Shown here: piece after piece, positions 2,909 to 38,203 of the stretch | How positions within the stretch are numbered: position 1 is the first letter of the stretch | Layout of the letters: every line of letters starts with the position of its first letter | Origin: Candidatus Omnitrophica bacterium CG11_big_fil_rev_8_21_14_0_20_64_10 | Lineage (GTDB): Bacteria; Omnitrophota; Gorgyraeia; 1-14-0-20-64-10 | Reading direction: 5' to 3' | Assembly: GCA_002787095.1 (NCBI GenBank) | Contig: PCVW01000045.1 | Location: 1 to 48,886, forward strand | Length of the DNA stretch: 48,886 nt | Notes under the pieces: model-generated | Told to the model about the DNA's origin: nothing | Seen by the model: the letters and a program-made list of their open reading frames with translations, nothing else | The model's database searches: none | Made by a program: the position numbers and the translations under genes

Positions 2909-2913
2909 CTTCC

Positions 2914-2942
2914 TTGACGCAAGGTGTATCATATGGTATATA
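2914..2942 (+). promoter_or_regulatory. Sigma70-type promoter for brnTA
   Basis: TTGACG - 17 bp - TATATA, 7 nt before the ATG of the next ORF. Confidence 0.6.
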
Positions 2943-2948
2943 TAGTAA

Positions 2949-4569: not shown

Positions 4570-4662
4570 CGGTAGCATGTTTGTGTACGGTTCAGCCGCC
4601 TGCTTCTCGCGTGTTCTTTTCAGAAATTACCACTGCCTTGAGCACCTGAAAATCAACTCAAT

Positions 4663-4734
4663 GGTGGCTATGGTGTAACGGCAGCACGAGAGATTGTGGA
4701 TCTCTCGGAACGGGTTCGATTCCCGTTAGCCACC
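4663..4734 (+). tRNA. tRNA-His(GTG)
   Basis: G-1 plus GTGGCTA/TAGCCAC acceptor; anticodon arm AGAGATTGTGGATCTCT; T-arm CGGGTTCGATTCCCG. Confidence 0.92.
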
Positions 4735-4816
4735 CCAACCTTTTCTCTCTTAAGGCCGCAACAGAGAGGCCAAAAGCCCCGATTCAGACGATGAATCGGG
4801 GCTTCTTCATGTCTTG
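4728..4816 (+). repeat. Direct repeat copy 1: tRNA-His 3' end plus terminator region
   Basis: AGCCACCCCAACCTTTTCTCTC..GAAGCCCCGATTCAGACGATGAAT.GGGGCTTCTTC is repeated at 11373-11460 with few mismatches. Confidence 0.88.
4774..4806 (+). terminator. Rho-independent terminator-like hairpin after tRNA-His
   Basis: AAGCCCCGATTCA gacga TGAATCGGGGCTTCTT. Confidence 0.7.
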
Positions 4817-5394: not shown

Positions 5395-6234
5395 TTGATC
5401 GAGCGTGAGGCGTGCGAGACTTTGAGCGTCAGGCGCCAGTGTGAGCTCCTGGAGCTTAATCGGTCGAGCTTTTACTATGGGCCGGTTCCGGTGAGCGCAG
5501 AGGACCAAGCCGTCATGGACAAGATCGACGAGATCTACACCCAGTGGCCGTTCTATGGCGCACGGCGCATGTCCCTGGAGCTCAAAGGTCTTGGCCTTCC
5601 GGTCGGGCGAAAGCGCACGGGTTCTCTCATGCGTTTGATGGGTCTTGAGGCGGTGTTCCCCCAGAGGAACCTGTCCAAGCCCCATCCGGATCACCCGGTG
5701 TATCCGTACCTCCTGCGCGAAGTCGAGGTGACCCGCTCCAATCAGGTCTGGAGCATGGACATCACGTACATGAAGCTCAAGAAGGGATTCGTCTATCTGG
5801 CCGCCGTGATCGACTGGAAGAGCCGATATGTGCTCTCCTGGAAGATCTCCAACACGCTCACACCCGACTTCTGCGTCGAGGCGCTGAAGGAGGCGCTGGA
5901 ATACGGCACACCCGAGATCTTCAACACAGACCAGGGAAGCCAATTCACCAGTGACGAGTTCCTCCGGACGCTGAAGAACCGCGGCATCCAGATCAGCATG
6001 GACGGCAGAGGGCGAGCTCTCGACAACATCTTCGTCGAGCGGCTCTGGAGGAGTGTCAAGTACGAGAACATCTACCTGAAAGGCTACGAGACGATCCCGG
6101 AGGCCGAAGCGGGGCTCCGGGAATATTTTGAATTCTACAATACCGAACGGCGCCACCAATCACTGGGCTACAAAACCCCGTGGCGGGTCTATTCCGGATT
6201 GGAGGTGGGCCAAAACCAAAACCTGGCGGCCTAA
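5395..6234 (+). CDS. IS3-family transposase OrfB (DDE integrase core)
   Basis: RRQCELLELNRSSFYY; WSMDITYMKLKKGFVYLAAVIDWKSRYVLSW; NTDQGSQFTS; ERLWRSVKYENIYLKGYE. Confidence 0.93.
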   Translation: MIEREACETLSVRRQCELLELNRSSFYYGPVPVSAEDQAVMDKIDEIYTQWPFYGARRMSLELKGLGLPVGRKRTGSLMRLMGLEAVFPQRNLSKPHPDHPVYPYLLREVEVTRSNQVWSMDITYMKLKKGFVYLAAVIDWKSRYVLSWKISNTLTPDFCVEALKEALEYGTPEIFNTDQGSQFTSDEFLRTLKNRGIQISMDGRGRALDNIFVERLWRSVKYENIYLKGYETIPEAEAGLREYFEFYNTERRHQSLGYKTPWRVYSGLEVGQNQNLAA

Positions 6235-6288
6235 AAACTTCACCTTAAACCAACAGCAAAAATGGTCTAGACAAACGGAGCCACTATA

Positions 6289-7149
6289 GATAGCCAGGTC
6301 GAAGACTTGGTTTAGCTCGTTCCTTTTTTCTTTTAATTCGACCATGTGGAGAGGTACCGCAAATTTATCCTCGCGCCTAACGGCGGCGGCTATACCGGCA
6401 TTTTCAAATATTTCCTTGGCTTTCTCGATGTTGTCGCGCCCAACCCTCATGTAGAAACGGCAGTATCCTTCTTTGTGGCGAGGGGTGTACCAACTGAAAT
6501 TTCTTCGTGAGGTTCCGACAGCGATATGGTTTTTGTTGTAGGTAATTCGGACATTTGGATCGTGAGCTTTTGATAGGGCAACCAGGCCGTCGAATACCTC
6601 CATAGACTTTGGGTTTGATCGGCCTTCCCAATATCCCCGATCTTTCACTTCTCCGTCCAAAAGTTCTTCCTCAGCCGGTTCTTCGTAAATGTCTAAGACC
6701 GGGATGAAATCCAGAAATATCTTGTCCTCAAACGTGGTTGCGTGAAGCTTGATGGCGATGATTGGAATTGACCGGCTCATTAGCCCGATGACGTTAAAAA
6801 ACCGTTTGGTGATCTCTTCCGCGATGATGACGGCTTTGTGGTCTCTGGATGGGAAGCGACGGCTTTCAATGTCCCAATACTCTATAGTTCTGATGATGTG
6901 GCTTTCGTCCGTAGCACCAAGCATAAGTTCAACTTCATACATGGTGTTTGTCTCTGGATCGTTCAGAAGGAAGTCGAGCTTGCCGCCAGAGGACTGTTTT
7001 CTTTCGCGCTCTACGACAACCACGTCGCCCAGGCCAAACAGGGCGGGGTTTTCCTCAAGGCGTTCCTGTAGCCACTTTTCATTGAAGTCGGGATGGTTTT
7101 TTAGCCGGATGGTTTCATGCTTTACGTAGTTGAGCTTCTGCATATTCAT
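6289..7149 (-). pseudogene. PD-(D/E)XK nuclease-like protein, 3' end truncated by IS3 element
   Basis: GKLDFLLNDPETNTMYEVELMLGATDESHIIRTIEYWD resembles the PD-(D/E)XK core; the reading frame runs into the IS right end at 6288 and terminates within the IS at 6160. Confidence 0.6.
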
Positions 7150-7195
7150 ATTCCTTTCGGGGATTATTTTTCGAGGCGGGTCTGCGGCAGAATAA

Positions 7196-7459
7196 ATGTT
7201 GCTCGATCTTTTTTACTGCCATAGAATGCAATGTATGCAAACCCCACTTCCCAAGTCTAATCCTTCTCGAATCGTAAAGCAATTGGAGTTGTACCGCCTG
7301 GAAAATCGAATCCCGAAAGAAGTTTTAGCCGAGGCATTGGGCGTCAGCTTTTCGACGGTCAGCCGGTGGCTCGGCGGCAAGACTAAGCCCCAGAAGGTTC
7401 AGCAGTATCACATTGAGAAATTTTTGAAAGAGAAGATCAAAGCAAAGAGAAAGTCGTGA
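7196..7459 (+). CDS. XRE-type helix-turn-helix regulator
   Basis: IVKQLELYRLENRIPKEVLAEALGVSFSTVSRWLGGKTKPQKVQQYHIEKFL. Confidence 0.8.
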   Translation: MLLDLFYCHRMQCMQTPLPKSNPSRIVKQLELYRLENRIPKEVLAEALGVSFSTVSRWLGGKTKPQKVQQYHIEKFLKEKIKAKRKS

Positions 7460-9111
7460 GCGTACACGGCGGTTTATCCAAGGAGCAGTTGATCGAAAAG
7501 ATCAAATCGCTCCAGAAGCGCAAGAAATTTGGCTTGGTTTGGGAAGATAAGCCGGAGGATGTCGCCGAGCTTTGTAAAACAAAATTGCCGGTCTTAGTTC
7601 AGGCGGGTGAAAAAGAAATTTCAGATGGCGATCCTGGGGCCACAAATGTCCTGATAGAAGGCGATAACTACCATGCGCTCTCGGTTCTTAATTACACCCA
7701 TAAAAACAAGGTCGATGTTATCTACATCGATCCTCCATACAACACGGGGGCGCGAGACTGGAAGTATAACAACGACTTTGTAGACATCAACGATGCTTAT
7801 AGGCACAGCAAGTGGCTCAGCATGATGTCGAAGCGGCTACAGCTTGCCAAAAACTTGCTCAAGTCTGATGGGGTTCTGGTTTGCGCAATAGATGACAACG
7901 AGTTTCATCATCTCGGCACTTTATTAGAGGAAATATTCTTCGACCACGAAATTCATTGCGTAACCATCGTGCATAACCCCAGAGGCATACAGGGAAACAA
8001 TTTCTCTTATACCCATGAGTATGCGTATTTTGTTTTTCGGAGAGGATTAAAGATTGTTGGGCATAGAAAACTAAAGGACGAGGAGATTTATTGGAGCAAT
8101 CTAAGAAATTGGGGCAGTGAATCGTTGCGTAGTGATGCTAGAAATTGCTTTTATCCGGTTATTGTTAAGAAAGACAAGGTGGTCAGTTTTGGCAACGTTC
8201 CTTCCAATGATTTTCATCCTAGGAAACAAACGGAGACGAAAAATGGGCTGTATTATATCTGGCCTATTGATGTAAGGGGTGTCGAGAGAAAATGGCGATA
8301 TGCCAGACAGAGCGTCAAATCTATTCAGGATATTTTAAGGGTCAAGAGGTCCAATGGGCGAGTCGAGATAGAGATTGGAAAAGATTACGGGACGGTCAGG
8401 ACGGTGTGGAAAGATACGAGATATGACGCAAACGAATACGGAACAAAATTAGTCCATGCATTAGTGCCGGACTGCGAGTTCAATTTCCCCAAGTCTGTTT
8501 TTAACACTTACGACTGTATTGCTCCGATCCTGCGGGAAAAGAAAGATGCCCTAGTGCTTGACTATTTCGCTGGGTCAGGTACTACGGGCCATGCGGTATT
8601 AATTCTCAACAAAGAAGATAAGGGTCGAAGGAGTTTTATTCTCTGTACTAACAACGAAAACAAGATTGCCGATGAGGTTTGTTATCCTCGAATCAAGAAG
8701 GTCATTAAGGGGCATAGAGACTACCCGGACATTACGGGCGTCCCCGCTTGTTTGAGGTATTTCCGAACAGATTTTGTAGACGCCGACCCGACCGACCGGA
8801 ACAAGAAGAAACTAACCGTTCAAGCGACGGAGATGCTTTGTTTGAAAGAGGGTACTTTCAGGAGAGTTATCAATAAGAAGGCGTTCAAAATATTCAAGAA
8901 CACGAACCACTACACCGGAATCATTTTTGACCACACTGCGATCCCCGACTTCAAGAAGGCCATCGAAAAGCTCAAAGGGAAATTCAGTGTTTATGTATTC
9001 TCCCTTGGGGACGATACTTTCGACGAAGAATTCGAGGACGTAAGGCAAAGAGTAAAACTTTCACCTATCCCCGAAGTGATCCTCCGGGTTTACCGGAGAA
9101 TCTTCAAATGA
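7456..9111 (+). CDS. Type III restriction-modification DNA methyltransferase (Mod)
   Basis: NVLIEGDNYHALSVLNYTHKNKVDVIYIDPPYNTG (DPPY) and DYFAGSGTTGHAV SAM motif; GTG start overlaps XRE stop. Confidence 0.9.
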   Translation: MSVHGGLSKEQLIEKIKSLQKRKKFGLVWEDKPEDVAELCKTKLPVLVQAGEKEISDGDPGATNVLIEGDNYHALSVLNYTHKNKVDVIYIDPPYNTGARDWKYNNDFVDINDAYRHSKWLSMMSKRLQLAKNLLKSDGVLVCAIDDNEFHHLGTLLEEIFFDHEIHCVTIVHNPRGIQGNNFSYTHEYAYFVFRRGLKIVGHRKLKDEEIYWSNLRNWGSESLRSDARNCFYPVIVKKDKVVSFGNVPSNDFHPRKQTETKNGLYYIWPIDVRGVERKWRYARQSVKSIQDILRVKRSNGRVEIEIGKDYGTVRTVWKDTRYDANEYGTKLVHALVPDCEFNFPKSVFNTYDCIAPILREKKDALVLDYFAGSGTTGHAVLILNKEDKGRRSFILCTNNENKIADEVCYPRIKKVIKGHRDYPDITGVPACLRYFRTDFVDADPTDRNKKKLTVQATEMLCLKEGTFRRVINKKAFKIFKNTNHYTGIIFDHTAIPDFKKAIEKLKGKFSVYVFSLGDDTFDEEFEDVRQRVKLSPIPEVILRVYRRIFK

Positions 9112-11321
9112 TGCGCCTCAAGGAGTATCAGGAAGACGCGATTAAAGAATTGCTGACAAAGGCCAAAAAGCTCATCGCCTATCCTGATGGAAAGCGCATG
9201 ATTTTTAAGGCCCCTACGGGGTCAGGCAAGACAATCATGGTAGCCGAGTTTTTGAAGCGATTATGTGAAGACAAGGAAGTCCGCACCGCCCTTTCGTTTA
9301 TCTGGACTGCCCCAAGACAGCTACAGATTCAAAGCAGAAACAAGTTGGAACAGTATTACGAAACAAGCCGTGCGCTCAAATGTTCCTTTTTTGAAGATTT
9401 GGATGACAAGAGGATCGACGAAAACGAAATCCTCTTTTTCAACTGGGAGAGTATTAACAGGAGCGACAACATTTACATCCGAGAAAACGAGCAGGACAAC
9501 AATCTGTCGAACATCATCAGGCGAACAGGGGAGGAAGGTCGGACAATCGTTCTCGTCATTGATGAGAGCCATCACCACGCTACAAGCGAAATATCGCAAA
9601 ACCTGATCCGCGATATTGCCCCCAAATTCACCATCGAAGTATCCGCTACCCCTGTGATGGAAAGCCCGGACGAGATCGTTTCCGTTCAGCTTGAAGATGT
9701 AAAGGCGGAAGGAATGATTAAGAAGGCGGTCATGCTGAATCCGGGGTTTGAGAATATTCTCAGAGACAGGAGAATTCAAAGTCAGTTAAGAAAACAATCC
9801 GAGGAGTTGGTTATTGAAACTGCCCTTGAGAAACGGGATGCCATTAGAGAAGCCTACAGAAAAGAGAAAACGGGCATCAATCCGCTGATTCTTATCCAAC
9901 TGCCGGACAGAAGAACCTCACTTGAAGATGCGATCAAGGACAAGGTTATCGCAGTCCTCAAGAACAAGCACAGGATCACTGCTGAAAACGGAAAGTTAGC
10001 AATCCATCTGGCGAAGCATAAAGAAAATCTTGATGACATTGCACGCTACGACAATGAAGCAGAAGTTCTGATATTCAAACAAGCCCTTGCCTTGGGTTGG
10101 GACTGTCCCCGCGCCCACATCTTGGTTCTTTTTCGGGATTGGCGGAGCGTAGAGTTTTCGATCCAGACCATAGGACGCATCATGCGTATGCCAGAGCAGG
10201 ATCATTACGAGGCGGAAATCTTGAATTACGGATATGTGTTCACCAACATCGAGACCATCGAAATCCAGGAAGATTTAGCCAGGGATTACATCACGGTTCA
10301 TACCTCGAAGCGGGGACAAGAGTATTCGTCTTTGTCGTTGCTTTCGTGCCATTCTAAACGCTACCGAGAGAGGACCCGCCTATCCGCCCTTTTTATCAGA
10401 ATTTTCCTAGAAGAATCCGACGCCTATGGTCTTGCCGATAAAGTCAAAAAGAAGGTAAGAGGGTTAAGCGTCAAATTTATTTCCGACTACAAAGCTGAGA
10501 ACATTGATGCTTTGGCGGGGGAAATAATCCCCGGCAGAGAAGTCCTTAGAATGGGCGGTTTCGATATGCAAAAGTATTTCGATTTCTTTGTGAGAAAAAA
10601 TCTCTCACCGTTTTATCCAGAAGACAGGTCAGTTGGAAGAATGAAAGAGGCCATATACGGCTTCTTCGTTCAAAGGCTCAAGATGGACTACGAGGACGTG
10701 CAGGAAGGTATTATTCAGATAGTTTTGAGAGACAAAAATAGAGAACATTTTGTGAACGTGATCGACCAAGCTAAAAAGAAATATATTGACGACATATCGA
10801 AGCGCGAGAAAGAGCTTGAGTTTGACGGGGGGTGGGAAGTGCCAGCGGAGATCGGTTTCAATGCCCGTTATGCTATTGAAGAGCGGAAGAGATCTATCAT
10901 GCGGCCCTTTTTTAATAACGAGCATTCGGGTATCGAAGCCGCCTTTATGACCTTCTTGGATGGGCAAGAGAAGGTAGCTTGGTGGTTCAAGAATGAGGCC
11001 AAGAATCCAGCTTATTTTGCTGTTCCCTATGAGGAGAACGGCGACAAAAGTCCCTTTTACGTTGATTTCATTGTCCGGCTGAAAGACGGATCGGTCGGGC
11101 TTTTCGACACCAAAGCTGGTTTGACCCAAAGAGTAGCTGGGCCGAAAGTAGACGGGCTTCGGGCTTATATCAGGGAACAGGATAAAAAGGGCAAGAAGTT
11201 ATTTGGCGGAATCGTTACTAACACCGATGGCAGGAATTACGCCGGGCGGTGGGTTTACTTCGATAAAGAAGGTAAGGAATTGTCCGGCAGGCTGGATAAT
11301 TGGGAAACTCTCATTTTTTAG
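9108..11321 (+). CDS. Type III restriction endonuclease subunit (Res), SF2 helicase plus nuclease
   Basis: FKAPTGSGKT Walker A; VLVIDESHH (DEAH-like); IGRIMRMPEQ; C-terminal YVDFIVRLKDGSVGLFDTKAG nuclease motif. Confidence 0.9.
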   Translation: MMRLKEYQEDAIKELLTKAKKLIAYPDGKRMIFKAPTGSGKTIMVAEFLKRLCEDKEVRTALSFIWTAPRQLQIQSRNKLEQYYETSRALKCSFFEDLDDKRIDENEILFFNWESINRSDNIYIRENEQDNNLSNIIRRTGEEGRTIVLVIDESHHHATSEISQNLIRDIAPKFTIEVSATPVMESPDEIVSVQLEDVKAEGMIKKAVMLNPGFENILRDRRIQSQLRKQSEELVIETALEKRDAIREAYRKEKTGINPLILIQLPDRRTSLEDAIKDKVIAVLKNKHRITAENGKLAIHLAKHKENLDDIARYDNEAEVLIFKQALALGWDCPRAHILVLFRDWRSVEFSIQTIGRIMRMPEQDHYEAEILNYGYVFTNIETIEIQEDLARDYITVHTSKRGQEYSSLSLLSCHSKRYRERTRLSALFIRIFLEESDAYGLADKVKKKVRGLSVKFISDYKAENIDALAGEIIPGREVLRMGGFDMQKYFDFFVRKNLSPFYPEDRSVGRMKEAIYGFFVQRLKMDYEDVQEGIIQIVLRDKNREHFVNVIDQAKKKYIDDISKREKELEFDGGWEVPAEIGFNARYAIEERKRSIMRPFFNNEHSGIEAAFMTFLDGQEKVAWWFKNEAKNPAYFAVPYEENGDKSPFYVDFIVRLKDGSVGLFDTKAGLTQRVAGPKVDGLRAYIREQDKKGKKLFGGIVTNTDGRNYAGRWVYFDKEGKELSGRLDNWETLIF

Positions 11322-11330
11322 GCGATTCGA

Positions 11331-11380
11331 GGGGTCAGGCGGCTAAAAGACAGGTTCTAACATCATCCAGCCAGCCACCC
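11331..11380 (+). repeat. Modular ~50-bp direct repeat, copy 1
   Basis: GGGGTCAGGCGGCTAAAAGACAGGTTCTAACATCATCCAGCCAGCCACCC; cf. 14136-14184 and 14812-14831. Confidence 0.85.
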
Positions 11381-11460
11381 CAACCTTTTCTCTCCTAAGG
11401 CCTCGACAGAGAGGCCGAAAGCCCCGATTCAGACGATGAATTGGGGCTTCTTCCATGTCT
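11373..11460 (+). repeat. Direct repeat copy 2 of tRNA-His 3' end plus terminator
   Basis: AGCCACCCCAACCTTTTCTCTCCTAAGGCCTCGACAGAGAGGCCGAAAGCCCCGATTCAGACGATGAATTGGGGCTTCTTC. Confidence 0.88.
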
Positions 11461-11506
11461 GGTCTTTAACTCCAGCGTCTCCAGCCCGCGTTAGCCGCTC
11501 TCAGCC

Positions 11507-11535
11507 TTGAATAGTAGACATATGTATCCTATAAT
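11507..11535 (+). promoter_or_regulatory. Sigma70-type promoter for the YhcG/DUF1016 gene
   Basis: TTGAAT - 17 bp - TATAAT. Confidence 0.6.
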
Positions 11536-11560
11536 AAGAGATGGATACGTAGGAGGCGCA

Positions 11561-12676
11561 ATGAAACGAGAAAAGCAGGGCAATCTTCCCGCGGTTCGAT
11601 CACTCCATTCGGAGGTAGCGGCGGGTAATCTCCTGGGAGACGTCCGCTCTCTGATCGAGGGCGCTCGAAAGCGGGTCGCGCAAGCCGTGAATGCCGGCCT
11701 CGTGATGCTCTACTGGAACATCGGTAACCGCGTTCGCGAAGAGATCGGGGAGCAGGGAGCGACCTACGGGGAGAAAGTTGTGGATTCTCTGTCGAGCCAT
11801 CTGACCCTGCAGTATGGGCAGGGATTCTCGCGGGTGAACCTGTTCGGCATGATTCGCTTTGCTGAGGTGTTCCCGGATCCCAAGATTGTACAGACACTGT
11901 CTGAACAATTGGGGTGGAGCCACATGGTGGAGATCATCCGCCTTCCTGACGAGCTGCAGCGCGATTTCTATGCCGAGATGTGCCGGCTGGAGCGATGGAG
12001 CGTTCGGACCTTGCGGGCCAAGATTCAGGGAATGCTCTACGAGCGGACGGGGATTTCCAAGAAACCGGCCGAACTCGCCAAGCAGGAACTCAAAAAGCTC
12101 CGGGAGGAAGACCGCCTGACACCGGACTTGGTGTTCCGTGATCCTTATCTTCTGGATTTCCTCGGCCTGAAAGACGCGTACAGCGAGCGGGATCTGGAAA
12201 CCGCCATCCTCCGGGAGCTGGAGCGGTTCTTGGTGGAGTTGGGGAGCGACTTCGCGTTTCTTGCCCGCCAGAAGCGTATTACGGTGGATCAGGAGGATTA
12301 CTATCTCGACCTTTTGTTCTATCATCGCCGGTTGCACCGGCTGGTGGCCATTGACTTGAAGCTGGGTCGGTTTGAGGCGGCAGACAAGGGGCAGATGGAG
12401 CTCTACTTGCGGTGGCTTGAGCGGCATGAAAAGCAGTCCGGCGAAAATCCGCCCATCGGTCTTATCCTGTGCGCCGGGAAGTCCGCCGAGCACGTGGAGC
12501 TGCTGCGGCTGGAAAAGAGCGGCATCCGGGTAGCCCAATATCTGACCGAGTTGCCGCCCCGGAAGGTCTTGGAGCACAAGCTGCACGAGGCGATTCGGAT
12601 CGCGCGGGAGCACTTGGCTGTCCGGCAACTGCCTGCAGGAAAAAATGTCCGGCCAAAGCCGGGGGACAATCAGTAA
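11561..12676 (+). CDS. YhcG/DUF1016 family PDDEXK nuclease
   Basis: N-terminal LIEGARKRVAQAVNAGLVMLYWNIGNRVREE; C-terminal DPYLLDFLGL.. LGSDFAFLARQKRITVDQEDYYLDLLFYHRRLHRLVAIDLKLG..; AGGAGG before ATG 11561. Confidence 0.92.
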   Translation: MKREKQGNLPAVRSLHSEVAAGNLLGDVRSLIEGARKRVAQAVNAGLVMLYWNIGNRVREEIGEQGATYGEKVVDSLSSHLTLQYGQGFSRVNLFGMIRFAEVFPDPKIVQTLSEQLGWSHMVEIIRLPDELQRDFYAEMCRLERWSVRTLRAKIQGMLYERTGISKKPAELAKQELKKLREEDRLTPDLVFRDPYLLDFLGLKDAYSERDLETAILRELERFLVELGSDFAFLARQKRITVDQEDYYLDLLFYHRRLHRLVAIDLKLGRFEAADKGQMELYLRWLERHEKQSGENPPIGLILCAGKSAEHVELLRLEKSGIRVAQYLTELPPRKVLEHKLHEAIRIAREHLAVRQLPAGKNVRPKPGDNQ

Positions 12677-29297: not shown

Positions 29298-29303
29298 TAT
29301 GCT
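29298..29303 (+). promoter_or_regulatory. Possible -10 (TATGCT) for riboswitch 1 transcript, with TTGTAT at 29274
   Basis: TTGTAT - 18 bp - TATGCT. Confidence 0.3.
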
Positions 29304-29329
29304 TAGAACGGAAACGAAAGTTTCCAGCA

Positions 29330-29412
29330 GGACGCGACAAAGGCAAACCATCCGAAAGGATGGGACGCAAAGCCAGGGGCCCTGAAATGCGGGTAGCCCA
29401 GCTGCCGAACGA
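29330..29412 (+). ncRNA. Cyclic di-GMP-I (GEMM) riboswitch 1
   Basis: GGCAAACCATCCGAAAGGATGGGACGCAAAGCCAGGGGCC...GCGGGTAGCCCAGCTGCCG matches the class I consensus core. Confidence 0.9.
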
Positions 29413-29435
29413 CAAATGGGGTTCCATTGCGTGAA

Positions 29436-29487
29436 GGCAGCCAGAGCTTTTCCCTGTCGCGGGAGGAGATTTGGCTGCTTTTTGTTT
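29436..29487 (+). terminator. Terminator-like hairpin downstream of riboswitch 1 (candidate expression platform)
   Basis: GGCAGCCA...TGGCTGCTTTTTGTTTT. Confidence 0.55.
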
Positions 29488-29525
29488 TGTTGATTGATCG
29501 TTCGGGAAAGGAGCGTGATCCCAAT

Positions 29526-29789
29526 ATGGATCAGCCGGAACAGAAGAATGAAGCGCGTCTCATGACGATCAAGGAGGTGGCCGAGTATCTGGCCATCCAT
29601 GAGATGACCCTGTACACCCTGCTTCACGAGTCGGACATTCCGGCGATGAAGCTGGGCGGCCAGTGGCGTTTCAACAAGCAGATACTGGACGCCTGGATCG
29701 TCAAGGAGATGGAGCAGGGGCGGATGCGGCAGTTGGGCGGCGGGAAGCCGGTCAAGGCCCATCCGGTCAAGGCCCGAAGGACAGCCTGA
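29526..29789 (+). CDS. Excisionase-type helix-turn-helix DNA-binding protein (HTH_17)
   Basis: LMTIKEVAEYLAIHEMTLYTLLHESDIPAMKLGGQWRFNKQILDAWI. Confidence 0.85.
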   Translation: MDQPEQKNEARLMTIKEVAEYLAIHEMTLYTLLHESDIPAMKLGGQWRFNKQILDAWIVKEMEQGRMRQLGGGKPVKAHPVKARRTA

Positions 29790-29847
29790 GCGTTATACAA
29801 TAGAAGCATCCGGAAGCAGGCACGACACCGTTCATCCTTGGAGGTGT

Positions 29848-30420
29848 GTGTTGAAGCATCCTGGAGGCAGGAAGGTTGGTTTCATCGGAGTCGTCGGTTG
29901 GATGTCCGTCCTGGGCCTGACCCTCTTCGGAGGGTTGGCCTGGGCGGATTCCGCCGAAGTCAACCACGCGGTCGCGGTGGTCGTGGTCCAGCCCGGGATC
30001 TCGATCACTGAGGAGACCGGGGACTTTACCCTTACCTTCGACAACTACACCGCCGGCACGCAGAGCGACACCCGCCAGGTCCAATACCGCATCAAGGGGA
30101 ACAGCTTTCCCACCAGCGCTCTGGATGGGGTGGTTTCCGCCAAGCTCAGCCAGACAATTGACGGGGTGGAGCTGCAGGCGGATGTCGGTTCCTACGACAA
30201 TCTGGGCTCGGAGGGAAACATCCAACTGGAGGAGACGCAGTCCGGTTTTCACGCGGTGGGGACCGCTCTGACTTCGTTGGCCGACAAGCGGGTGACCACC
30301 GGTTCCCAGGCCCGGGTCCTGAACGGCCGCCTCCCGATCGATTGGCGGGCGCAGGCCATTGAGGACCTTTCGGCCGGCAACTACACCACGACCCTGACCG
30401 TCACCGTCAAAGACGGCTGA
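29848..30420 (+). CDS. Secreted beta-rich subunit-like protein 1
   Basis: Signal peptide; ISITEETGDFTLTFDNYTAGTQSDTRQVQYRIKGNSF..LDGVVSAKLSQ..; paralogous to 30861, 31698 and 32289 ORFs. Confidence 0.7.
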   Translation: MLKHPGGRKVGFIGVVGWMSVLGLTLFGGLAWADSAEVNHAVAVVVVQPGISITEETGDFTLTFDNYTAGTQSDTRQVQYRIKGNSFPTSALDGVVSAKLSQTIDGVELQADVGSYDNLGSEGNIQLEETQSGFHAVGTALTSLADKRVTTGSQARVLNGRLPIDWRAQAIEDLSAGNYTTTLTVTVKDG

Positions 30421-30574
30421 TTGCCTCCCTTCGTTCCGTCCGGTTTCAAAAAGCCACCTTGCACAATAATCCGCATCTCATTTTATTTCAATAACTTATA
30501 AACATAGAAATCCTGCCGATTTTATCCGATCACTGAAGAATACTAAAGGATTTTAAAAAAATGAGCTCCGACCC

Positions 30575-30603
30575 TTGAATTTTGGGGAATTATCAGGTAA
30601 ATC
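30575..30603 (+). promoter_or_regulatory. Possible promoter for riboswitch 2 transcript
   Basis: TTGAAT - 17 bp - TAAATC. Confidence 0.4.
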
Positions 30604-30644
30604 TTGCCCTGAAGGTTCGGTTGTTTGACAAGTTGGATGGGTGT

Positions 30645-30722
30645 GGAGCGAAACGGCAAACCCGTCGTAAGGCGGGGGCGCAAAGCCAGGGGCCCTTGAA
30701 AGAGGGTCGCCCAGCTTCCGAA
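30645..30722 (+). ncRNA. Cyclic di-GMP-I (GEMM) riboswitch 2
   Basis: GGCAAACCCGTCGTAAGGCGGGGGCGCAAAGCCAGGGGCCCTTGAAAGAGGGTCGCCCAGCTTCCG. Confidence 0.87.
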
Positions 30723-30753
30723 ACCACGCATGGGTGTCACGGTCTCCAGGCCG

Positions 30754-30808
30754 AAGGCCCCCAAGCGTCTGAGCTCCACGGCTCAAACGGTTGGGGGCCT
30801 TATTTTTT
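30754..30808 (+). terminator. Terminator hairpin downstream of riboswitch 2 (candidate expression platform)
   Basis: AAGGCCCCCAAGCGTCTGAGC...GGCTCAAACGGTTGGGGGCCTTATTTTTT. Confidence 0.75.
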
Positions 30809-30860
30809 GGGTCTCCAGGGATGAACGCAGTCATAATGATAAAAGGGAGTGACGATTCCG

Positions 30861-31400
30861 ATGAAGAAGCTGACACTCGCGATGGGTTTGGTCCTGGCGC
30901 TGGGCATGGTGGGTTCCCCGGTCTGGGCCGCTTCTGTGAACGACACCGATCAGGTGACCATTTCGGTCAACGGTGTCCTGGCGATTTCCGATACCACGGG
31001 TGATTTCACGCTGACCTTCTCCGATTTCGAGATTGGGACGGACAGCGACACCCAGGCTGTGACATACCGGGTCAAGTCCAACAACATGGTGGACACCGCG
31101 CTGGATGGCGTTGTCAGCGCCCAGATTGACTCGGCGATTTACGGAGTCGCTTTGAAGGCCGATGTGGGGACCTATGCCAACATCGGTTCGACCGGGAATG
31201 TGGCGTTGACTGAGCACGCGGCCGGTTTCGCGACGGTCGGAACGACTGCCGTCAACTTGGCCAAGAAGGCGACCACGACCGGCAATCAGAAGAAGATCCT
31301 CAACGGGAACCTTCCGATCACTTGGAAGGCCACTGCGACCGAGGATCTGACCGAGGGTGACTACACCACGAACCTGACGGTCACTCTGAAGGACGCGTAA
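30861..31400 (+). CDS. Secreted beta-rich subunit-like protein 2 (candidate major subunit)
   Basis: MKKLTLAMGLVLALGMVGSPVWA signal; LAISDTTGDFTLTFSDFEIGTDSDTQAVTYRVKSNNM..GDYTTNLTVTLKDA. Confidence 0.75.
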   Translation: MKKLTLAMGLVLALGMVGSPVWAASVNDTDQVTISVNGVLAISDTTGDFTLTFSDFEIGTDSDTQAVTYRVKSNNMVDTALDGVVSAQIDSAIYGVALKADVGTYANIGSTGNVALTEHAAGFATVGTTAVNLAKKATTTGNQKKILNGNLPITWKATATEDLTEGDYTTNLTVTLKDA

Positions 31401-31418
31401 TCGAAGTTTATTTGAATA

Positions 31419-31454
31419 GGCGGGCCCGGGAACAATCCCGGGCCCGCTTCTTTT
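31419..31454 (+). terminator. Strong rho-independent terminator
   Basis: GCGGGCCCGGGA acaa TCCCGGGCCCGC TTCTTTT. Confidence 0.88.
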
Positions 31455-31603
31455 CCAGATGTTCCCCCAGCTCCATTCCAAGATAAGTCTTGGTATTTCA
31501 TCATATATAACCCATTGAAAATAATAATGATAAAAATATAAAAAATGCACATTGTAACTTGACAACCATCAGTTTGACCGGGTACACTTCAGAAGTCAGT
31601 CGA

Positions 31604-31629
31604 GGATCCGTTGTAAGGATCCGTTGTAA
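31604..31629. repeat. Tandem 13-mer
   Basis: GGATCCGTTGTAA x2. Confidence 0.9.
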
Positions 31630-31697
31630 GAAAATCTTTTTATAACCTTGTCATTTTTACACATGGCGTGGCATACTTGGGGTGAACGATCAAGCCG

Positions 31698-32264
31698 ATG
31701 ACAAAACTTCGAGCCAAAATGAGGAAGCTTTGGATGGTTGCCGCGGCGGCCTTGGTGATCAGCAGCCTGCCGGTCGGGCAGGTGGCCTATGCCGCCTCTG
31801 AGAATGTCTCCCACACGGTCACGATCCGGGTCAACGGCAAGCTCTCCATCACGGACGACACCGGGGACTTCACCCTGACCTTCGGCGACTTCACGACCGG
31901 CTCCGACAGTACCGTCCAGCAGGTCCAGTACCGGGTCCAGTCCAACGACATGACCCTTTCAGCCCTGAACGGCGTGGTCTCGGCCCAGATCTCCAGCGCG
32001 GTGGATGGGGTGGACCTCAAGGGAGATGTTGGGACGATCACCAACCTGGGCGGCCCCAACAATGTGCAGTTGGAGGAGCAGCACACCGGCTACGCGACGG
32101 TGGGGACCGCCGGCACCGAATTGTGCAAGAAGGGGGCCACGACCGGCAGCTCCGGGAAGATCCTGAACGCCCGGGTACCGATCGACTGGCGGGCCACCGC
32201 GACCAAGGATTTGGCCGCCGGCGATTACACCACGAAGCTGGTGGTGACTCTGAAAGATTCCTAA
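31698..32264 (+). CDS. Secreted beta-rich subunit-like protein 3
   Basis: Signal peptide; LSITDDTGDFTLTFGDFTTGSDSTVQQVQYRVQSNDM..VVSAQISSAVDGVDLKGDVGTITNLG. Confidence 0.75.
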   Translation: MTKLRAKMRKLWMVAAAALVISSLPVGQVAYAASENVSHTVTIRVNGKLSITDDTGDFTLTFGDFTTGSDSTVQQVQYRVQSNDMTLSALNGVVSAQISSAVDGVDLKGDVGTITNLGGPNNVQLEEQHTGYATVGTAGTELCKKGATTGSSGKILNARVPIDWRATATKDLAAGDYTTKLVVTLKDS

Positions 32265-32288
32265 GCTTTTCCTGCTATAATCCGAAGG

Positions 32289-32849
32289 ATGAGCCGCGCG
32301 ATCCTTTGGAAAAAATGGGGAGCCCGTTTCTTCTGGATCGGGCTCCTCTTTTTCTTTTCTGAGCTTGCTCCCTCCGCCTGGGCCGGTTTCGGCCTGGAGG
32401 GGGAGGCCCCGCCGATTCTCAGCATCCGGGACACGACCGGTCCCTTCCTCCTGGAGTTCGACGACTTCATGTCCGGCAGCGCCAGCAATGTCCAGCGGGT
32501 GACCTATCGGGTCCGGGCCAACAACATGTCGAAGGGAAAGGTGAAGGGGGCGGTGGAGGCCCGGATCTCCTCCGAGCTGGATTCCAAGGAAATTGAGTTT
32601 GAAGGGGATGTCCTGGGATACCGGAACCTCGGCGATCCCGATTTCGGCCGGCTGGAAGAGACCCACCAGGGGTTCCGGAAGGTGACGGACAAGGGGATGG
32701 CGCTGGCCGATAAAGCCAAGGGATCCGGGGCCCAGGACGATTGTCTGGATGGGGAGTTGGCCGTGGCCTGGCGGGCGGTCCTGAAGAAGCCGGCCGCGGC
32801 CGGGAAAACCGAGATCTCGCTGTTGGTGACCCTGACCGATGGCAGTTGA
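32289..32849 (+). CDS. Secreted beta-rich subunit-like protein 4 (divergent paralogue)
   Basis: LSIRDTTGPFLLEFDDFMSGSASNVQRVTYRVRANNMSKGKVKGAVEARISSELDSKEIEFEGDVLGYRNLGD. Confidence 0.7.
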   Translation: MSRAILWKKWGARFFWIGLLFFFSELAPSAWAGFGLEGEAPPILSIRDTTGPFLLEFDDFMSGSASNVQRVTYRVRANNMSKGKVKGAVEARISSELDSKEIEFEGDVLGYRNLGDPDFGRLEETHQGFRKVTDKGMALADKAKGSGAQDDCLDGELAVAWRAVLKKPAAAGKTEISLLVTLTDGS

Positions 32850-33378
32850 CCGCCGACCGGAATTCCGGGTCCTTTTTCTGTGGGCCGCCGGGCTCCTGCT
32901 GGGGCTTTCGGTTCCGGTGACGCCCGCCGCCGCCCAATCCTCCGCGACCGATACGATCGGCTTCGAGATCGAGGTGGAGCCGGCCTTCTTCCTGGACCTG
33001 GTGTCGGAGGGGGGGAACATCCTGGTCAGCCCGATGGTTCCGGACCGGCCTGCTTCCGACGCGATGCGGGTGGTCGTCCGGACCAACCGGGGTCAGCCTT
33101 ACCGGATCCTTCACACGCTGGAGGAGCCCCTCCGCGGGCCGGATGGGCGCCGGATCGATCCGGGGGCGTTCCTTTTCTCTGCTTCCGACGGCCTGCATGG
33201 AGGCCGCTCCAGGGTTCCCCATCCGGTTCCCCTCAAGTCCGGCCGCTCGGTGGTCTTCCTCTCCAACCGCCGGGGGGACGCGGATGAATTCCTGCTGACC
33301 TATACCGCCCCCGGCCGCTCGGTGATCGCCTCGGGGCGGTACCGGGGGCGGGTGGAAGTGGAGTGGGAGCTGCAATGA
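32839..33378 (+). CDS. Secreted beta-rich protein 5 (minor subunit/adaptor candidate)
   Basis: Signal peptide; beta-strand alternation; overlaps neighbours by a few nt. Confidence 0.6.
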   Translation: MAVDRRPEFRVLFLWAAGLLLGLSVPVTPAAAQSSATDTIGFEIEVEPAFFLDLVSEGGNILVSPMVPDRPASDAMRVVVRTNRGQPYRILHTLEEPLRGPDGRRIDPGAFLFSASDGLHGGRSRVPHPVPLKSGRSVVFLSNRRGDADEFLLTYTAPGRSVIASGRYRGRVEVEWELQ

Positions 33379-33875
33379 GACGCCTGCGGATCGGCGCGTG
33401 GGGGCTGGCGGTGGTTCTCGGAATCGGCTTGGCCGGGCCCGCGGCCGCGGCGGTGACGCTGCGGGTGGCTCCGGTGGAAGGGGGGCGGGACATGGATTTC
33501 GGCCTGGCCCGCTCCCTGAATCCGCAGGGGGAGCCGACCGGCGATCGGGTCACCCGCCAGGTGCGGCTCACGATCACTTCCAGCGACCCGGGCCGGTACC
33601 AGGTTTTTCAGAGCGCCGGCGGCCGCTGGACCGATCTTCAGGGGGAGGAATTCCCGCTGGATGCGGTAAAATTCTTTGTCGCCGAAGCGAATGGGCGGGG
33701 GATCGTTCGTTTCCCGAACCCGACCCCATTGACGCTGGGAGAGCGGGAGATCTTTCTCTCGGAGCCGAGCGGCGGGGACCGGGAACTTCTGGTGACCTAC
33801 ACGGTGCAGGTGCCGGCCGGGCAGCGGGCCGGCCGTTATCGGATGAACATGACTTACCGGGTGGTGGCGCAATGA
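33375..33875 (+). CDS. Secreted beta-rich protein 6 (minor subunit/adaptor candidate)
   Basis: MRRLRIGAWGLAVVLGIGLAGPAAAAVTLRVAPVEGGRDMDFG..; AGRYRMNMTYRVVAQ C-terminal strand. Confidence 0.6.
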   Translation: MRRLRIGAWGLAVVLGIGLAGPAAAAVTLRVAPVEGGRDMDFGLARSLNPQGEPTGDRVTRQVRLTITSSDPGRYQVFQSAGGRWTDLQGEEFPLDAVKFFVAEANGRGIVRFPNPTPLTLGEREIFLSEPSGGDRELLVTYTVQVPAGQRAGRYRMNMTYRVVAQ

Positions 33876-34720
33876 AACGGTTGTGGGGAACGCTTCTTCT
33901 ATCGGGGATGCTGGCGGTCGGCGTGATGCCGCCGGCCGAAGCCGGGATGGGGGTTTCCGTTTATCCGAGCCGTTTTCGTCTGCAGAAAGGGGCGGGGGAG
34001 ACCGCTTCCGGGAAGGTCCGGATCGACAACGAGGGGACCTATCCGGTCCAGATCGTCGTCGAGGTGACCGACATGATCAGCCGGGTCAACGAGGAGGGGA
34101 TTCTCCTGCGGGATGAGGCGCCGCCCGGCACCTCTCCCTATTCCTGCGCCCGCTGGATCCGGGTGGTCAGCGGAGAAGGGGCGGTGATTCCGGCCGGACA
34201 GTCTTCGGAGGTGGAGTTCGTGGTCTCTCCGCCGCCGAGCGTCACCTCCGGCGGCTACTCCGCCTATCTTTTCCTGCGGGGTCAGCCGGCTGAGGGATTC
34301 GACGAGCGGGACGCCGACCGCCCGCAGGTGCGTCTCGTCACGATCCCCCGGATGGGCGTTTCGGTGATCTATGAGGTGGAGGGAACGGTTGAGCGCACCG
34401 GGGAGTTGACCTCGCTGGAGTTCCAGCCGCCGGCCGACGGAAAACCAATGCGGGTCCTGTACGGCTTCCGCAACACCGGCAATGCCGAGGTGGTGGTGGC
34501 TGCCAGCTACCACATCCTGGACGGGCAGGGGCGGATGGCCGGCAACGGCGCGCTTCGGACGATGAAGTCCTTTCCGGGAGATGCCGGCAAGGCGGAGACC
34601 ACCCTGACCGACGCGCTGGCCCCCGGGAAATACACGATGCTGATCACCTTCGAGTTGGGGCCCGATTCCACCGAGGCGATCGTCCGCGAGCTGGAGTTTG
34701 AAGTTCCGGCCGGCGGATGA
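33872..34720 (+). CDS. Periplasmic pilus chaperone-like (PapD-like) protein
   Basis: AGMGVSVYPSRFRLQKGAGETASGKVRIDNEGTYPVQIVVEVTD...VIPAGQSSEVEFVVSPPPSVTSGGYSAYLFL: two Ig-like domains. Confidence 0.6.
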   Translation: MKRLWGTLLLSGMLAVGVMPPAEAGMGVSVYPSRFRLQKGAGETASGKVRIDNEGTYPVQIVVEVTDMISRVNEEGILLRDEAPPGTSPYSCARWIRVVSGEGAVIPAGQSSEVEFVVSPPPSVTSGGYSAYLFLRGQPAEGFDERDADRPQVRLVTIPRMGVSVIYEVEGTVERTGELTSLEFQPPADGKPMRVLYGFRNTGNAEVVVAASYHILDGQGRMAGNGALRTMKSFPGDAGKAETTLTDALAPGKYTMLITFELGPDSTEAIVRELEFEVPAGG

Positions 34721-37620
34721 GCTGGTCGTTCCTCCGGGTCGCTCCGCGGCTTGCCGCCTTGCTCCTGCTCTTTTCCCTCGCTTCCCCCGTTCGCGCCGAA
34801 CCGCTTGAACTCTTTGAGGTGGAGCGGAGCCGGACCGTTTCGGTGCCGACCCAGGGGGAGGTGACCCGGACCCTGATTCTCCGCCCCGATGTCGTCGCCG
34901 TTGAGCGGACGACCCCGACGGAGATCGTCTTCACCGGCTTGGCGATCGGCGACACCCTGGTCCATCTGTGGGACGACGCCGGCCGCCGAACCCTCCGGCT
35001 GCGGGTCACCGAGCTTCAGTCCATCGTGGATGAGATTCGTCAGCGGGAGGAGGCCGCACAGGCCCGGCGGCTGGGGATCCCGGATCGGACGCTGAAGCTC
35101 CATTACCGGGTCACCCAGGAGCATCTGGAGAGCGGGACGGGGAAGGTCAAACCGTCCGAGACCGACGAGAACATCCGGGTCCGGGACCAGCAGATGCATG
35201 CCGAGCTGGGGGTGCCGGGGGGACAGCTGGCGGCCGACCTGTATCTGGAGACCCGTCGGGACACCGACATCGCCCAGGAGGTGACGCAGCCCCGGCACAT
35301 GGCGCTGACCTACGGGATGCCGGCGCTCGCTTTCCTCGGCCCGGTGGAGTGGGTTCTGGGGGACCGGGACATCACCCTGTCGGACTTCACCCTGAGCGGC
35401 ACCCGGGTCCGGGGCGGGGGGCTTTTCCCGACGCCGCTGCGGTCCGGGGAGAAGCGGACCAACCGTTGGGAACTGTCGGTCTTCGGCGGGCAGGAGCGGG
35501 AGGGGTTCGGGCTGGACTCCCCGGCCGGTCAGATCACCCGGGGGGACCGGAACCAGGTGGCTGGGATTCGGACTGATTACCGGTTGTTCGATTTGGGGAC
35601 GGTCCATTGGACCGGGCTTGAGCGGCATGGGGATCTGCCCCAGGACCGGGCTGATCATGTTTTTGAGACCGGTCTGGACCTGGCTCTGTTCGGGGAGCGG
35701 GCGAGGGTTCAGGGGGAGGTGGCCCGCAACGGCACCGAGAGCGCCTCTCAATTGGAGCTGGCCCTCAATCCCTGGAACAACCTGCGCTCCCAGCACCTGC
35801 TTTGGCGGGTCGGCAAGGAATACAAGTCGGTGACCGGATCGACCGGCCGGGAGGGGCAGACCGGCTACGACGGCTCCGTCGAGTGGATCCTCCCGGGGTG
35901 GGACGAGGCGCTCTCCCTGAACGGCGCGGTGGAGCTTTACCGGGACCGCAACGCGGTCAACCCGGTCAATACCGATGAGTTGAACACCACCTACGCCGGC
36001 GGCGCTTCCATCGCCCTGCCGGCCGGGGTTCTCCTGAACACCGGCGTTTCCTACGCGGATCTCAGCGGCGCCTCCCTGCCGTCGGTCACAAAACGGGCCG
36101 ATATCAATCTCTCCAAGGAGATCCTGATTGAGAAGGGATGGCTGCAGGGGCTCTCCCTTTCGACCGGGGCGGAGCGGGTCGAGTGGTCAAAATCGGCCGG
36201 AGTGGTCGGTTTTGACGGCGTGCTGCGGTTGGCGCGGGCGGGGGTGCGGGCCCGGCTGATTCACGGTTTCTGGGGGGGCCTCTCCTGGGCGCTGGCCGAC
36301 CTGCGGGAAGACCAGCCGGAGGCGGGCAACACCAATACGGTTCATCCCGCGCAGATGGGGGCGGAACTGGGTTGGAGCCGGCGGTTCGACGGCTGGACTT
36401 GGCCGGTCAACATGAACCTTTCGTTCCGGTATCAGGATGCCGCCGAGACCTTCAGCCGGACCCATCAGCCCTTCTCCGACCGGGACCAGCTCAGCGGCAA
36501 CCTGGGGATTGTCGTGGATGCCAACGAGAACCAGCAGATGTTCCTGAATCTCTCGGCCGGCCGGCAGACCCCACAGACCGGCAGCGGGGCGCCGGATGTG
36601 GACATCTTCCTCAAGTTCGGGATGCGGACCGACTGGAACACCGGCTGGGTGCTGCCCCGCAACGGGATGGTCTCCGGAGTCCTGTTCGAGGACCTCAACG
36701 CCAACGGCAAGCCGGATCCGGAGGAGCCGGTCCGGCCCGGGGTGCGGGTCTCGGCGGATGACGGGCGGACCACCCGGACCAACGGCCGGGGGATGTACCG
36801 CCTGCGGGTCCCGGAGGGGGAGCGGACGATCCGGGTGGATTGGGGGGAGGTTCCCAAGGGGCATTACTTCACGACCCCCAATACCGTCACTTTGCTGATG
36901 GTGCCGGGGAAGCCGCAGACGGTTCATTTCGGGATCGCGACCGAGACCGAGATCCGGGGGCGGGTTTACAATGATGTCAATGAAAACGGCCAGTACGATG
37001 AATGGACCGACCAACCGGTCCAGGGGCTGCACTTCCAGGTCGCCGGCGGGGGCAGCGGGGTCTCCGGGCCGCTCGGCTTTTACCAGATCCGGCGGATTCC
37101 GCCGGGGGAACACACCCTGACCCTCGTGCCCACCTCGGTTCCCAACGGCTATCAGACGCTGGCGCCGATCCGCACCAGCTGGAGCGGCGGGGCGGGGGAG
37201 GTGACCGTCTACGACATGCCGCTCAAGGCGCGGCGGACCGTCTGGGGACGGGCCTTCCTGGACGAGACCGAGAACGACCAGTATGAGACGATCGAGGCGC
37301 CGGGCCTGCTGCCGGGGGTTCGGGTGATCCTGGATGAGGCGATGGTCTTCACGACCGGGGCGGACGGGTTCTACCGGATCCCGGATCTTTCCCCCGGAAA
37401 ACACACGATCCGGCTGGACCCGGAGAGTCTCCCCTCCGGCTGTTTCCTCTCCCCGACCGCGTCGGAGACAATCGAGCTGGATCTGCCGGCGGAGCCCTCC
37501 TTCCGAGAGGACCTCCATTTCCCGATCCGGAACGCCGAGACCGGCCCCTCCCACAAGGAGCATCTGCAGGGGTTCTGGGACCGGGTCGGACAGTTCATGG
37601 CTGACCGTTGGCGCTCATGA
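34717..37620 (+). CDS. Outer-membrane usher-like protein: secretin-N-like domain, beta-barrel, C-terminal SdrD/CNA-B-like modules
   Basis: N-term SRTVSVPTQGEVTRTLILRPDVVAVERTTPTEIVFTGLAIGDTLVHLWDDAGRRTLRLRV; amphipathic barrel strands; three GxVFxDxNxNGxxDxxE-type modules. Confidence 0.65.
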   Translation: MSWSFLRVAPRLAALLLLFSLASPVRAEPLELFEVERSRTVSVPTQGEVTRTLILRPDVVAVERTTPTEIVFTGLAIGDTLVHLWDDAGRRTLRLRVTELQSIVDEIRQREEAAQARRLGIPDRTLKLHYRVTQEHLESGTGKVKPSETDENIRVRDQQMHAELGVPGGQLAADLYLETRRDTDIAQEVTQPRHMALTYGMPALAFLGPVEWVLGDRDITLSDFTLSGTRVRGGGLFPTPLRSGEKRTNRWELSVFGGQEREGFGLDSPAGQITRGDRNQVAGIRTDYRLFDLGTVHWTGLERHGDLPQDRADHVFETGLDLALFGERARVQGEVARNGTESASQLELALNPWNNLRSQHLLWRVGKEYKSVTGSTGREGQTGYDGSVEWILPGWDEALSLNGAVELYRDRNAVNPVNTDELNTTYAGGASIALPAGVLLNTGVSYADLSGASLPSVTKRADINLSKEILIEKGWLQGLSLSTGAERVEWSKSAGVVGFDGVLRLARAGVRARLIHGFWGGLSWALADLREDQPEAGNTNTVHPAQMGAELGWSRRFDGWTWPVNMNLSFRYQDAAETFSRTHQPFSDRDQLSGNLGIVVDANENQQMFLNLSAGRQTPQTGSGAPDVDIFLKFGMRTDWNTGWVLPRNGMVSGVLFEDLNANGKPDPEEPVRPGVRVSADDGRTTRTNGRGMYRLRVPEGERTIRVDWGEVPKGHYFTTPNTVTLLMVPGKPQTVHFGIATETEIRGRVYNDVNENGQYDEWTDQPVQGLHFQVAGGGSGVSGPLGFYQIRRIPPGEHTLTLVPTSVPNGYQTLAPIRTSWSGGAGEVTVYDMPLKARRTVWGRAFLDETENDQYETIEAPGLLPGVRVILDEAMVFTTGADGFYRIPDLSPGKHTIRLDPESLPSGCFLSPTASETIELDLPAEPSFREDLHFPIRNAETGPSHKEHLQGFWDRVGQFMADRWRS

Positions 37621-37659
37621 GTTATCAACAACCAGGGACAGTCCCTCCCTGTGGAAAAC
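37621..37659. repeat. Nested inverted-repeat element
   Basis: GTTATCAACA acc AGGGACAGTCCCT ccc TGTGGAAAAC. Confidence 0.7.
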
Positions 37660-37663
37660 TTCG

Positions 37664-38203
37664 ATGAAGCGGCGCCTGTGGATCGGGGTGGTCGCGCTGG
37701 GGCTGCTGGCCGTCGCCGGCGTCACCTTCGGCCTGCGCTCCTACCAGGTCTTTACCCGGCAGGAGCCGGTCGCCTTCCTTCGCTGTGAGCGGGCTCCGGG
37801 GACCCCCCCGGGACAGTTCACCCTGTTGTTCACCCAATCGGCCGGTCCGCTGGAGGATTTGGCCCCGGTCGCCTATCGGATGACCGGCGACCAATGGATG
37901 ATCGAGGGGGATTTCCTGAAATTCCATCCCTGGCTTAACTGGGCCGGCATTGAAAACCGTCACAAGCTGACCCGGCTGACCTCCCGCTACTACTCCGCCA
38001 AGGATGAGCGGGAACGCCCCCGCACGGTCCATGAGCTGAATAGCGGCAGCGGCCCGGTCTGGCGTTGGCTGCATGAGCAGGGGCGGTGGCTGCCGGCGGT
38101 GCAGGCGGTCTACGGCTCAGGCAGCTATACGACCGCCCGGCCGGGCGGTCGCTGGACGGTCTACGTGACCCTCAGCGGCTACCTGGTCGAGCCTTCCAAC
38201 TAG
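37664..38203 (+). CDS. Membrane-anchored protein of unknown function
   Basis: MKRRLWIGVVALGLLAVAGVTFGLRSYQVFTRQEPVAFLRCE.. one N-terminal TM. Confidence 0.6.
   Translation: MKRRLWIGVVALGLLAVAGVTFGLRSYQVFTRQEPVAFLRCERAPGTPPGQFTLLFTQSAGPLEDLAPVAYRMTGDQWMIEGDFLKFHPWLNWAGIENRHKLTRLTSRYYSAKDERERPRTVHELNSGSGPVWRWLHEQGRWLPAVQAVYGSGSYTTARPGGRWTVYVTLSGYLVEPSN

Follow-up and report, generated by a model that had tools for sequence, protein, structure and literature searches.

The locus described here lies in a 48,886-nucleotide (nt) stretch of DNA (the window) from Candidatus Omnitrophica bacterium CG11_big_fil_rev_8_21_14_0_20_64_10, contig PCVW01000045.1, and probably encodes a pathway of the chaperone-usher-like kind in which a surface fibre is assembled through donor-strand exchange. 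The locus contains genes for six secreted subunits (A to F), a candidate periplasmic chaperone (G), and an usher-like outer-membrane protein (H), together with two predicted riboswitches for cyclic di-guanosine monophosphate (c-di-GMP). The chaperone-usher-like reading is preferred because gene content, a conserved gene order, the profile homology of the chaperone to EcpB and of the tip protein to CfaE-CfaB, and a structural search in which ushers rank first for the barrel all agree. A preliminary description of this DNA proposed a c-di-GMP-controlled chaperone/usher-like system that has a non-canonical barrel and falls outside the named, characterized pilus families, and the evidence supports this proposal. 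No tested family model captures the gene set, and the system has diverged beyond the standard family models. No description of the locus was found among open-licence papers. Its features, by window position, are as follows (aa, amino acids; HTH, helix-turn-helix; Ig, immunoglobulin).

29333..29410, + strand: c-di-GMP-I riboswitch aptamer 1, upstream of the HTH gene and A (Rfam RF03167, 72.7 bits; R1 model, 82.8 bits)
29429..29494, + strand: terminator-like hairpin with U-run, the likely expression platform of aptamer 1 (fold z)
29526..29789, + strand: small HTH protein of the excisionase type (Pfam HTH_17, 7e-15; TIGR01764, 4e-16)
29848..30420, + strand: A, secreted subunit with an N-terminal strand, a pilin-like domain, and a C-terminal G-x-Y strand (paralogy, profile)
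30645..30722, + strand: c-di-GMP-I riboswitch aptamer 2, upstream of B (Rfam RF01051, 61.7 bits)
30754..30808, + strand: terminator hairpin with U-run 3′ of aptamer 2 (fold z)
30861..31400, + strand: B, secreted subunit, paralogue of A
31698..32264, + strand: C, secreted subunit, paralogue of A
32289..32849, + strand: D, divergent paralogue of A that lacks the C-terminal G-x-Y and most of the N-terminal strand
32839..33378, + strand: E, donor-strand-like N-terminus plus a pilin-like domain, equivalent to the linker and domain 3 of the tip protein
33363..33875, + strand: F, pilin-like domain without an N-terminal strand, equivalent to tip-protein domain 1 and predicted to be the distal tip subunit
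33872..34720, + strand: G, predicted periplasmic chaperone with two Ig-like domains (family profile matches)
34717..37620, + strand: H, usher-like outer-membrane protein of 967 aa (Pfam, AlphaFold, Foldseek)

The A gene starts with GTG. The genes between 32289 and 37620 overlap, as was seen at the outset, by 11 nt (D/E), 16 nt (E/F), 4 nt (F/G), and 4 nt (G/H).

The tip protein carries the link to donor-strand-complemented pilins. Related loci encode, upstream of the chaperone, a three-domain tip protein of ~470 aa. Searched against solved chains, a profile of this family matched only 3f83, the CfaE-CfaB fusion (1.4e-4), and the alignment runs from the end of one domain across the linking strand and the domain that follows. 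The AlphaFold model of a relative's tip protein (462 aa, pLDDT 90) places strands at residues 169-180 and 317-328, each directly behind the final strand of the domain before it. The top Foldseek match of this model is 3f85, an engineered donor-strand-complemented CfaB trimer (8e-15), followed by the CfaE-CfaB fusion 3f83 (2e-11) and the CfaB-CfaB fusion 3f84 (1.5e-10). The relationship to CfaB and CfaE is thereby found on the relative's three-domain protein, the family to which E and F belong.

In the window, the two ends of this three-domain protein are encoded separately, as E and F. F covers tip-profile positions 15-161, corresponding to domain 1 with nothing before it (7.5e-27), and E covers positions 318-459, corresponding to the linking strand plus domain 3 (1.1e-24). 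The split point is the donor strand. In the window, the strand that is covalently attached in the relatives forms a free N-terminus on a subunit of its own, an arrangement that matches the requirement for donor-strand exchange, and we infer that strands are exchanged between separate proteins. E and F bear signal sequences and are weakly paralogous; they had been recorded as two further small secreted proteins, which stands, and their identity as a split tip protein had been missed. Two other loci (L106 and L107) have the same split tip subtype along with A-D-like genes.

Subunits A to D match one another at E ≤ 1e-22 and share 35 invariant columns, confirming the four paralogous signal-peptide proteins (at 29848, 30861, 31698, and 32289) first recognized in the preliminary description. 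The A-D family profile (A11) aligns with the whole of domain 1 of the tip family (hhalign, 1.6e-6). Of the open reading frames (ORFs) lying up to 3.5 kb upstream of the chaperone, 95/200 end in the G-x-Y C-terminal strand, versus 30/844 elsewhere (p 2e-51). Pfam and NCBIfam scans of the single proteins detected no pilin family, and a major-pilin profile searched against solved structures returned only noise. The pilin of the Candidate Phyla Radiation (CPR) Pam pilus (NCBIfam NF058581) is weakly similar to 9/30 tip-family members (best 2.7e-4); F reaches E 0.014 and 15.5 bits, far under the 55-bit cut-off of that model. No published description of the CPR Pam pilus system was found. Pilin-like genes are particularly numerous at one related locus (L028, 118-4483), where five of them and one natural two-domain pilin fusion stand in a row before the chaperone, and a similarly large set is present at L026.

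G is predicted by profile to consist of two Ig-like domains, in keeping with the PapD-like chaperone originally proposed for the ORF at 33872. A family profile built from 60 sequences and searched against solved chains matched WxLIP1 (9i25) across both domains (2e-8, positions 37-272 of 279) and EcpB (5dfk) across part of domain 1 (8.9e-6). Comparison of the family with ten E. coli K-12 fimbrial chaperones by hhalign gave E 2.3e-7 and a probability of 93%, and an unrelated profile used as a control gave 0.063. A single-protein sequence search of G against solved structures found nothing. A few chaperones at related loci have extra C-terminal Ig-like repeats (L091, 6387-8093, 568 aa with several repeats; L026, 9046-10158; L028, 4499-5599).

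H is predicted to be a membrane barrel from its AlphaFold model, as was first suggested for the 967-aa ORF at 34717. The model (pLDDT 86, 48-row alignment) consists of an N-domain, a barrel at ~127-658 with 27 strand elements, and three small β C-domains at ~660-940. Pfam identifies T2SS-T3SS_pil_N at residues 34-97 and SdrD_B/CarboxypepD_reg matches past residue 655, and these domains recur in 41/48 (T2SS-T3SS_pil_N), 45/48 (SdrD_B), and 42/48 (CarboxypepD_reg) H-family members. A Foldseek search of the model against the Protein Data Bank placed FimD and PapC complexes at ranks 1-10, with the best FimD at E 1.1e-18. The best non-usher barrel was AlgE at ~1e-7, some 11 orders of magnitude behind the ushers. 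The modeled H shares an N-domain, a large barrel, and C-terminal β-sandwich domains with the FimD/PapC usher fold. Beyond T2SS-T3SS_pil_N, Pfam detected no secretin family in H, and a single-protein sequence search of H against solved structures found nothing.

The chaperone and barrel genes form a conserved pair. The chaperone profile (A1) has matches in 108/286 Omnitrophota genomes at E ≤ 1e-6, and relatives of H occur in 29/99 related genomes, with some matches spanning just the SdrD-like end. In 53/66 cases the gene immediately 3′ of the chaperone is that of the barrel, and in 47 of these the two are ≤100 nt apart or overlap; 2 further chaperone genes of the 66 abut contig ends. This adjacency is not built into the search, since most loci were identified from their chaperone only. 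A tip-family gene is present at 48/61 loci, and the subunit genes are upstream of the chaperone. A barrel-pattern scan of one genome per species across 85,462 species, which detects close relatives only, returned 43 relatives. The titles of 42 name Omnitrophota, Omnitrophica, or Velamenicoccus, and one is a metagenome-assembled contig identical to the query. Judged by these sequence matches, the system is phylum-wide in Omnitrophota. The synteny of chaperone and SdrD-type barrel bears out the preliminary description, which did not mention the spread across the phylum.

Variations on this arrangement were also seen. The window's own genome has a second chaperone-like and barrel locus (L024, 5154-9881; chaperone E 6e-60) that lacks an H-type barrel and instead has a 668-aa barrel and secreted proteins of 368 aa and 221 aa. 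Loci in genomes of the same family (L111 and L112) have chaperone and subunit genes like those of L024 that adjoin a HAD-type gene. Three chaperone genes are interleaved with pilin-like genes at L099 (3680-12189), with no barrel before the contig end.

A number of results weigh against a chaperone-usher-like pathway. The A-D profile has no match among solved structures, and A to D are linked to pilins solely through the tip family. The best solved match of the chaperone is a WxLIP protein of Gram-positive bacteria. The proline that is invariant in the chaperone superfamily (PMC4654587) aligns with a position that is Pro in 93% of the G family and is Ser100 in the G of the window. H has low TM-scores to ushers (0.2-0.46) owing to a different arrangement of its domains, and the likeness to ushers is thus architectural rather than close. 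The longest gap between strands in residues 127-658 of the H model is <20 residues, which indicates that a FimD-like plug is absent. Usher (PF00577), PapC_N, and PapC_C have no match in H and are not among the leading families of its 48 relatives; TcfC and CooC_C have no match in H, and searches of 59 related genomes touch none of these loci. The H-family profile matches E. coli ushers weakly (E 1.4e-4, probability 53%). The family searches were controlled: FimD matches PF00577, PapC_N, and PapC_C, and PF00577 is found in 0/59 related genomes with the E. coli control positive. The TcfC and CooC_C searches gave three stray matches elsewhere in the 59 genomes.

The WxLIP similarity raises the alternative of a WxL-like surface complex, in which G would be a WxLIP-like scaffold remaining attached to the Ig-like proteins at the surface, H would be an outer-membrane anchor or exporter, and no polymer would form. 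The match is almost full length and is the best that the G profile obtains, and Pfam WxLIP_PGBD has weak matches in 17/60 chaperone-family members. Yet no WxL domain is detected in A to F (Pfam, E up to 1), the tip subunits resemble donor-strand-complemented pilins, ushers rank first for H, and the gene order is of the chaperone-usher operon type. The WxL/WxLIP systems of Gram-positive bacteria also differ in that the Omnitrophota locus has a diderm-type outer-membrane barrel and an usher-like architecture. A complex of this type is unlikely. The low TM-scores and missing plug would also suit an outer-membrane exporter or porin of a general kind that bears surface domains of the Cna/SdrD type, the Ig-like proteins forming a matrix or S-layer-like coat that leaves the cell by another route. 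SdrD-type domains are indeed known from surface adhesins. This explanation does not account for the lead of the ushers over all other solved barrels, the frequent chaperone-barrel adjacency, or the pilin signatures, and we regard it as very improbable.

Whether the system is a separate lineage or belongs, remotely but genuinely, to the alternative (class 5, α) chaperone-usher clade concerns its ancestry and leaves the mechanism the same. The comparators were the Ecp and Fim genes of E. coli K-12. Like CFA/I and Ecp, the Omnitrophota loci have pilins homologous to CfaB/CfaE, a chaperone homologous to EcpB, the order subunit-chaperone-usher, and a CarboxypepD_reg-like domain at the usher C-terminus. 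The K-12 alternative usher EcpC likewise lacks PF00577 and has TcfC, CooC_C, and a CarboxypepD_reg-like end. In contrast, the Omnitrophota ushers lack TcfC and CooC_C, have a secretin-type N-domain, and usually carry two or three SdrD-like C-domains, and their loci contain natural tandem pilin fusions and c-di-GMP riboswitches. The family profile of H (A5) finds nothing when compared with EcpC alone. Arg89 of EcpB is a marker of alternative and archaic chaperones (PMC4654587), and it aligns with Ala in the G-family consensus, in a region where the alignment is significant but remote. A different arginine, R160, is 97% conserved in the family. This pattern of signature residues indicates a chaperone that is related to the described clades and is not a standard member of them. 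Membership of the α clade deserves some weight and is, on balance, doubtful. The FimC/FimD and PapD/PapC systems supply the top solved structures for H and a distant similarity to the chaperone profile, and they differ from H in having PF00577, PapC_N, PapC_C, and a plug-sized insert, and in their N-domain.

Both aptamers exceed the Rfam cut-offs (59 for RF03167 and 35 for RF01051), in agreement with the two GEMM-I riboswitch-like elements originally noted. The best-scoring model for aptamer 1 is the GGC variant (RF03167). The base at the GGC-diagnostic column is A, not G, in both window aptamers and in all 12 aligned aptamers from these loci; the GGC variant class was set aside on this base, and both are read as ordinary c-di-GMP-I riboswitches. 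A stable hairpin with a U-run follows each aptamer, with a fold z of -3.78 after aptamer 1 (29411-29500) and -3.93 after aptamer 2 (30723-30815), and 0/200 shuffles were as stable in either case. A covariance model made from the 12 aptamers was run over 62 sources (814 kb) and gave 49 matches, of which the 44 clear ones were classified. Most (34/44) are on the opposite strand, 306-843 bp past the barrel stop codon, 10/44 are on the same strand upstream of the subunit genes, and 0/44 are elsewhere. The number expected from the density in the window's own genome (8 in 1.73 Mb) is ~4. In the window, one riboswitch precedes the HTH gene and A and the other precedes B. The HTH gene, which sits between riboswitch 1 and A, possibly encodes a dedicated local regulator. 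Across the phylum, c-di-GMP-I riboswitches are present in 251/286 Omnitrophota genomes, with up to 14 per genome.

Gene content, gene order, homologies, the split tip protein, the aptamers, and the terminators all have computational support, and the pathway may operate as follows. G would bind incomplete Ig-like subunits in the periplasm, and the H barrel would assemble and secrete them. F has no N-terminal strand and would be the first and outermost subunit, the tip. E would give its N-terminal strand to F, and A to C, perhaps with D, would form the bulk of the fibre, each donating its own N-terminal strand in turn. The finished fibre would function in adhesion. Riboswitch 1 with its intrinsic terminator would couple the HTH gene and A to c-di-GMP, and riboswitch 2 with its terminator would do the same for B and the genes downstream; both ligand binding and switching are predicted from the sequence.

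The convergent riboswitches at related loci precede a gene that lies beyond the 3′ end of the usher gene, on the other strand, and encodes a small secreted protein. The protein is short at 30/32 loci, where an N-terminal strand of xVxVSCxIP type is followed by a low-complexity tail. Examples are L034 (9187-9522), L037 (6410-6688), L036 (8710-9009), and L084 (11503-11802), with ~28 other loci; the gene is absent from the window. At L092 and L027 a complete pilin domain follows a similar N-terminus. On a profile of the small-protein N-termini, those of mature pilins score higher than those of other secreted proteins (p 4e-9). This value is from a second, refined test that used mature N-termini only, and some of its top controls are pilins missed by the definition; a first, cruder count of donor-strand profile matches among pilins was not significant. 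The short donor-strand-type N-terminus and the profile score suggest a cap or anchor made of a donor strand only. PapH is a whole pilin. The known terminator FimI is also a whole pilin (PMC10673952), whereas the small Omnitrophota protein is mostly a donor strand with a low-complexity tail. We tentatively suggest, with less than even confidence, that this protein caps the groove of the last subunit and ends or anchors the fibre, which would amount to a phylum-wide, c-di-GMP-tuned control of fibre length or anchoring. Read-through from the convergent riboswitch unit could, in addition, affect the usher operon in antisense; c-di-GMP riboswitches are reported to favour such an arrangement (PMC9943018).

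The locus had at first been extended to 38203, and this extent is not upheld. ORF I (37676-38203), which follows H, has a predicted membrane-anchored or secreted product; it matches no family, lacks homologues at related loci, and does not appear to belong to the fibre system. No phage record matches the locus. Elsewhere in the window, positions 6001-12000 have a G+C content of 45-50% compared with ~65% in the remainder and lie near three tRNA genes (2753-4737); this stretch is possibly an acquired island.

If this reading is true, chaperone-usher-type fibre assembly extends to Omnitrophota, a large and almost wholly uncultured phylum. A survey of the phylum lists giant proteins and, among pili, the type-4a and Tad kinds, and no usher system (PMC10066038). 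Candidatus Velamenicoccus archaeovorus carries the system at ~1117349-1130228 of NZ_CP019384.1 and its proteome data are deposited (PXD025008, cited in PMC12583861), so expression can be checked at once. To the known fibre pathways the system would contribute an usher-like barrel that lacks a plug and carries a secretin-type N-domain, naturally occurring concatemers of pilins that resemble engineered donor-strand fusions, and a fibre under the direct control of c-di-GMP riboswitches. It would represent an overlooked candidate attachment organelle for these ultra-small, often host-attached or predatory bacteria.

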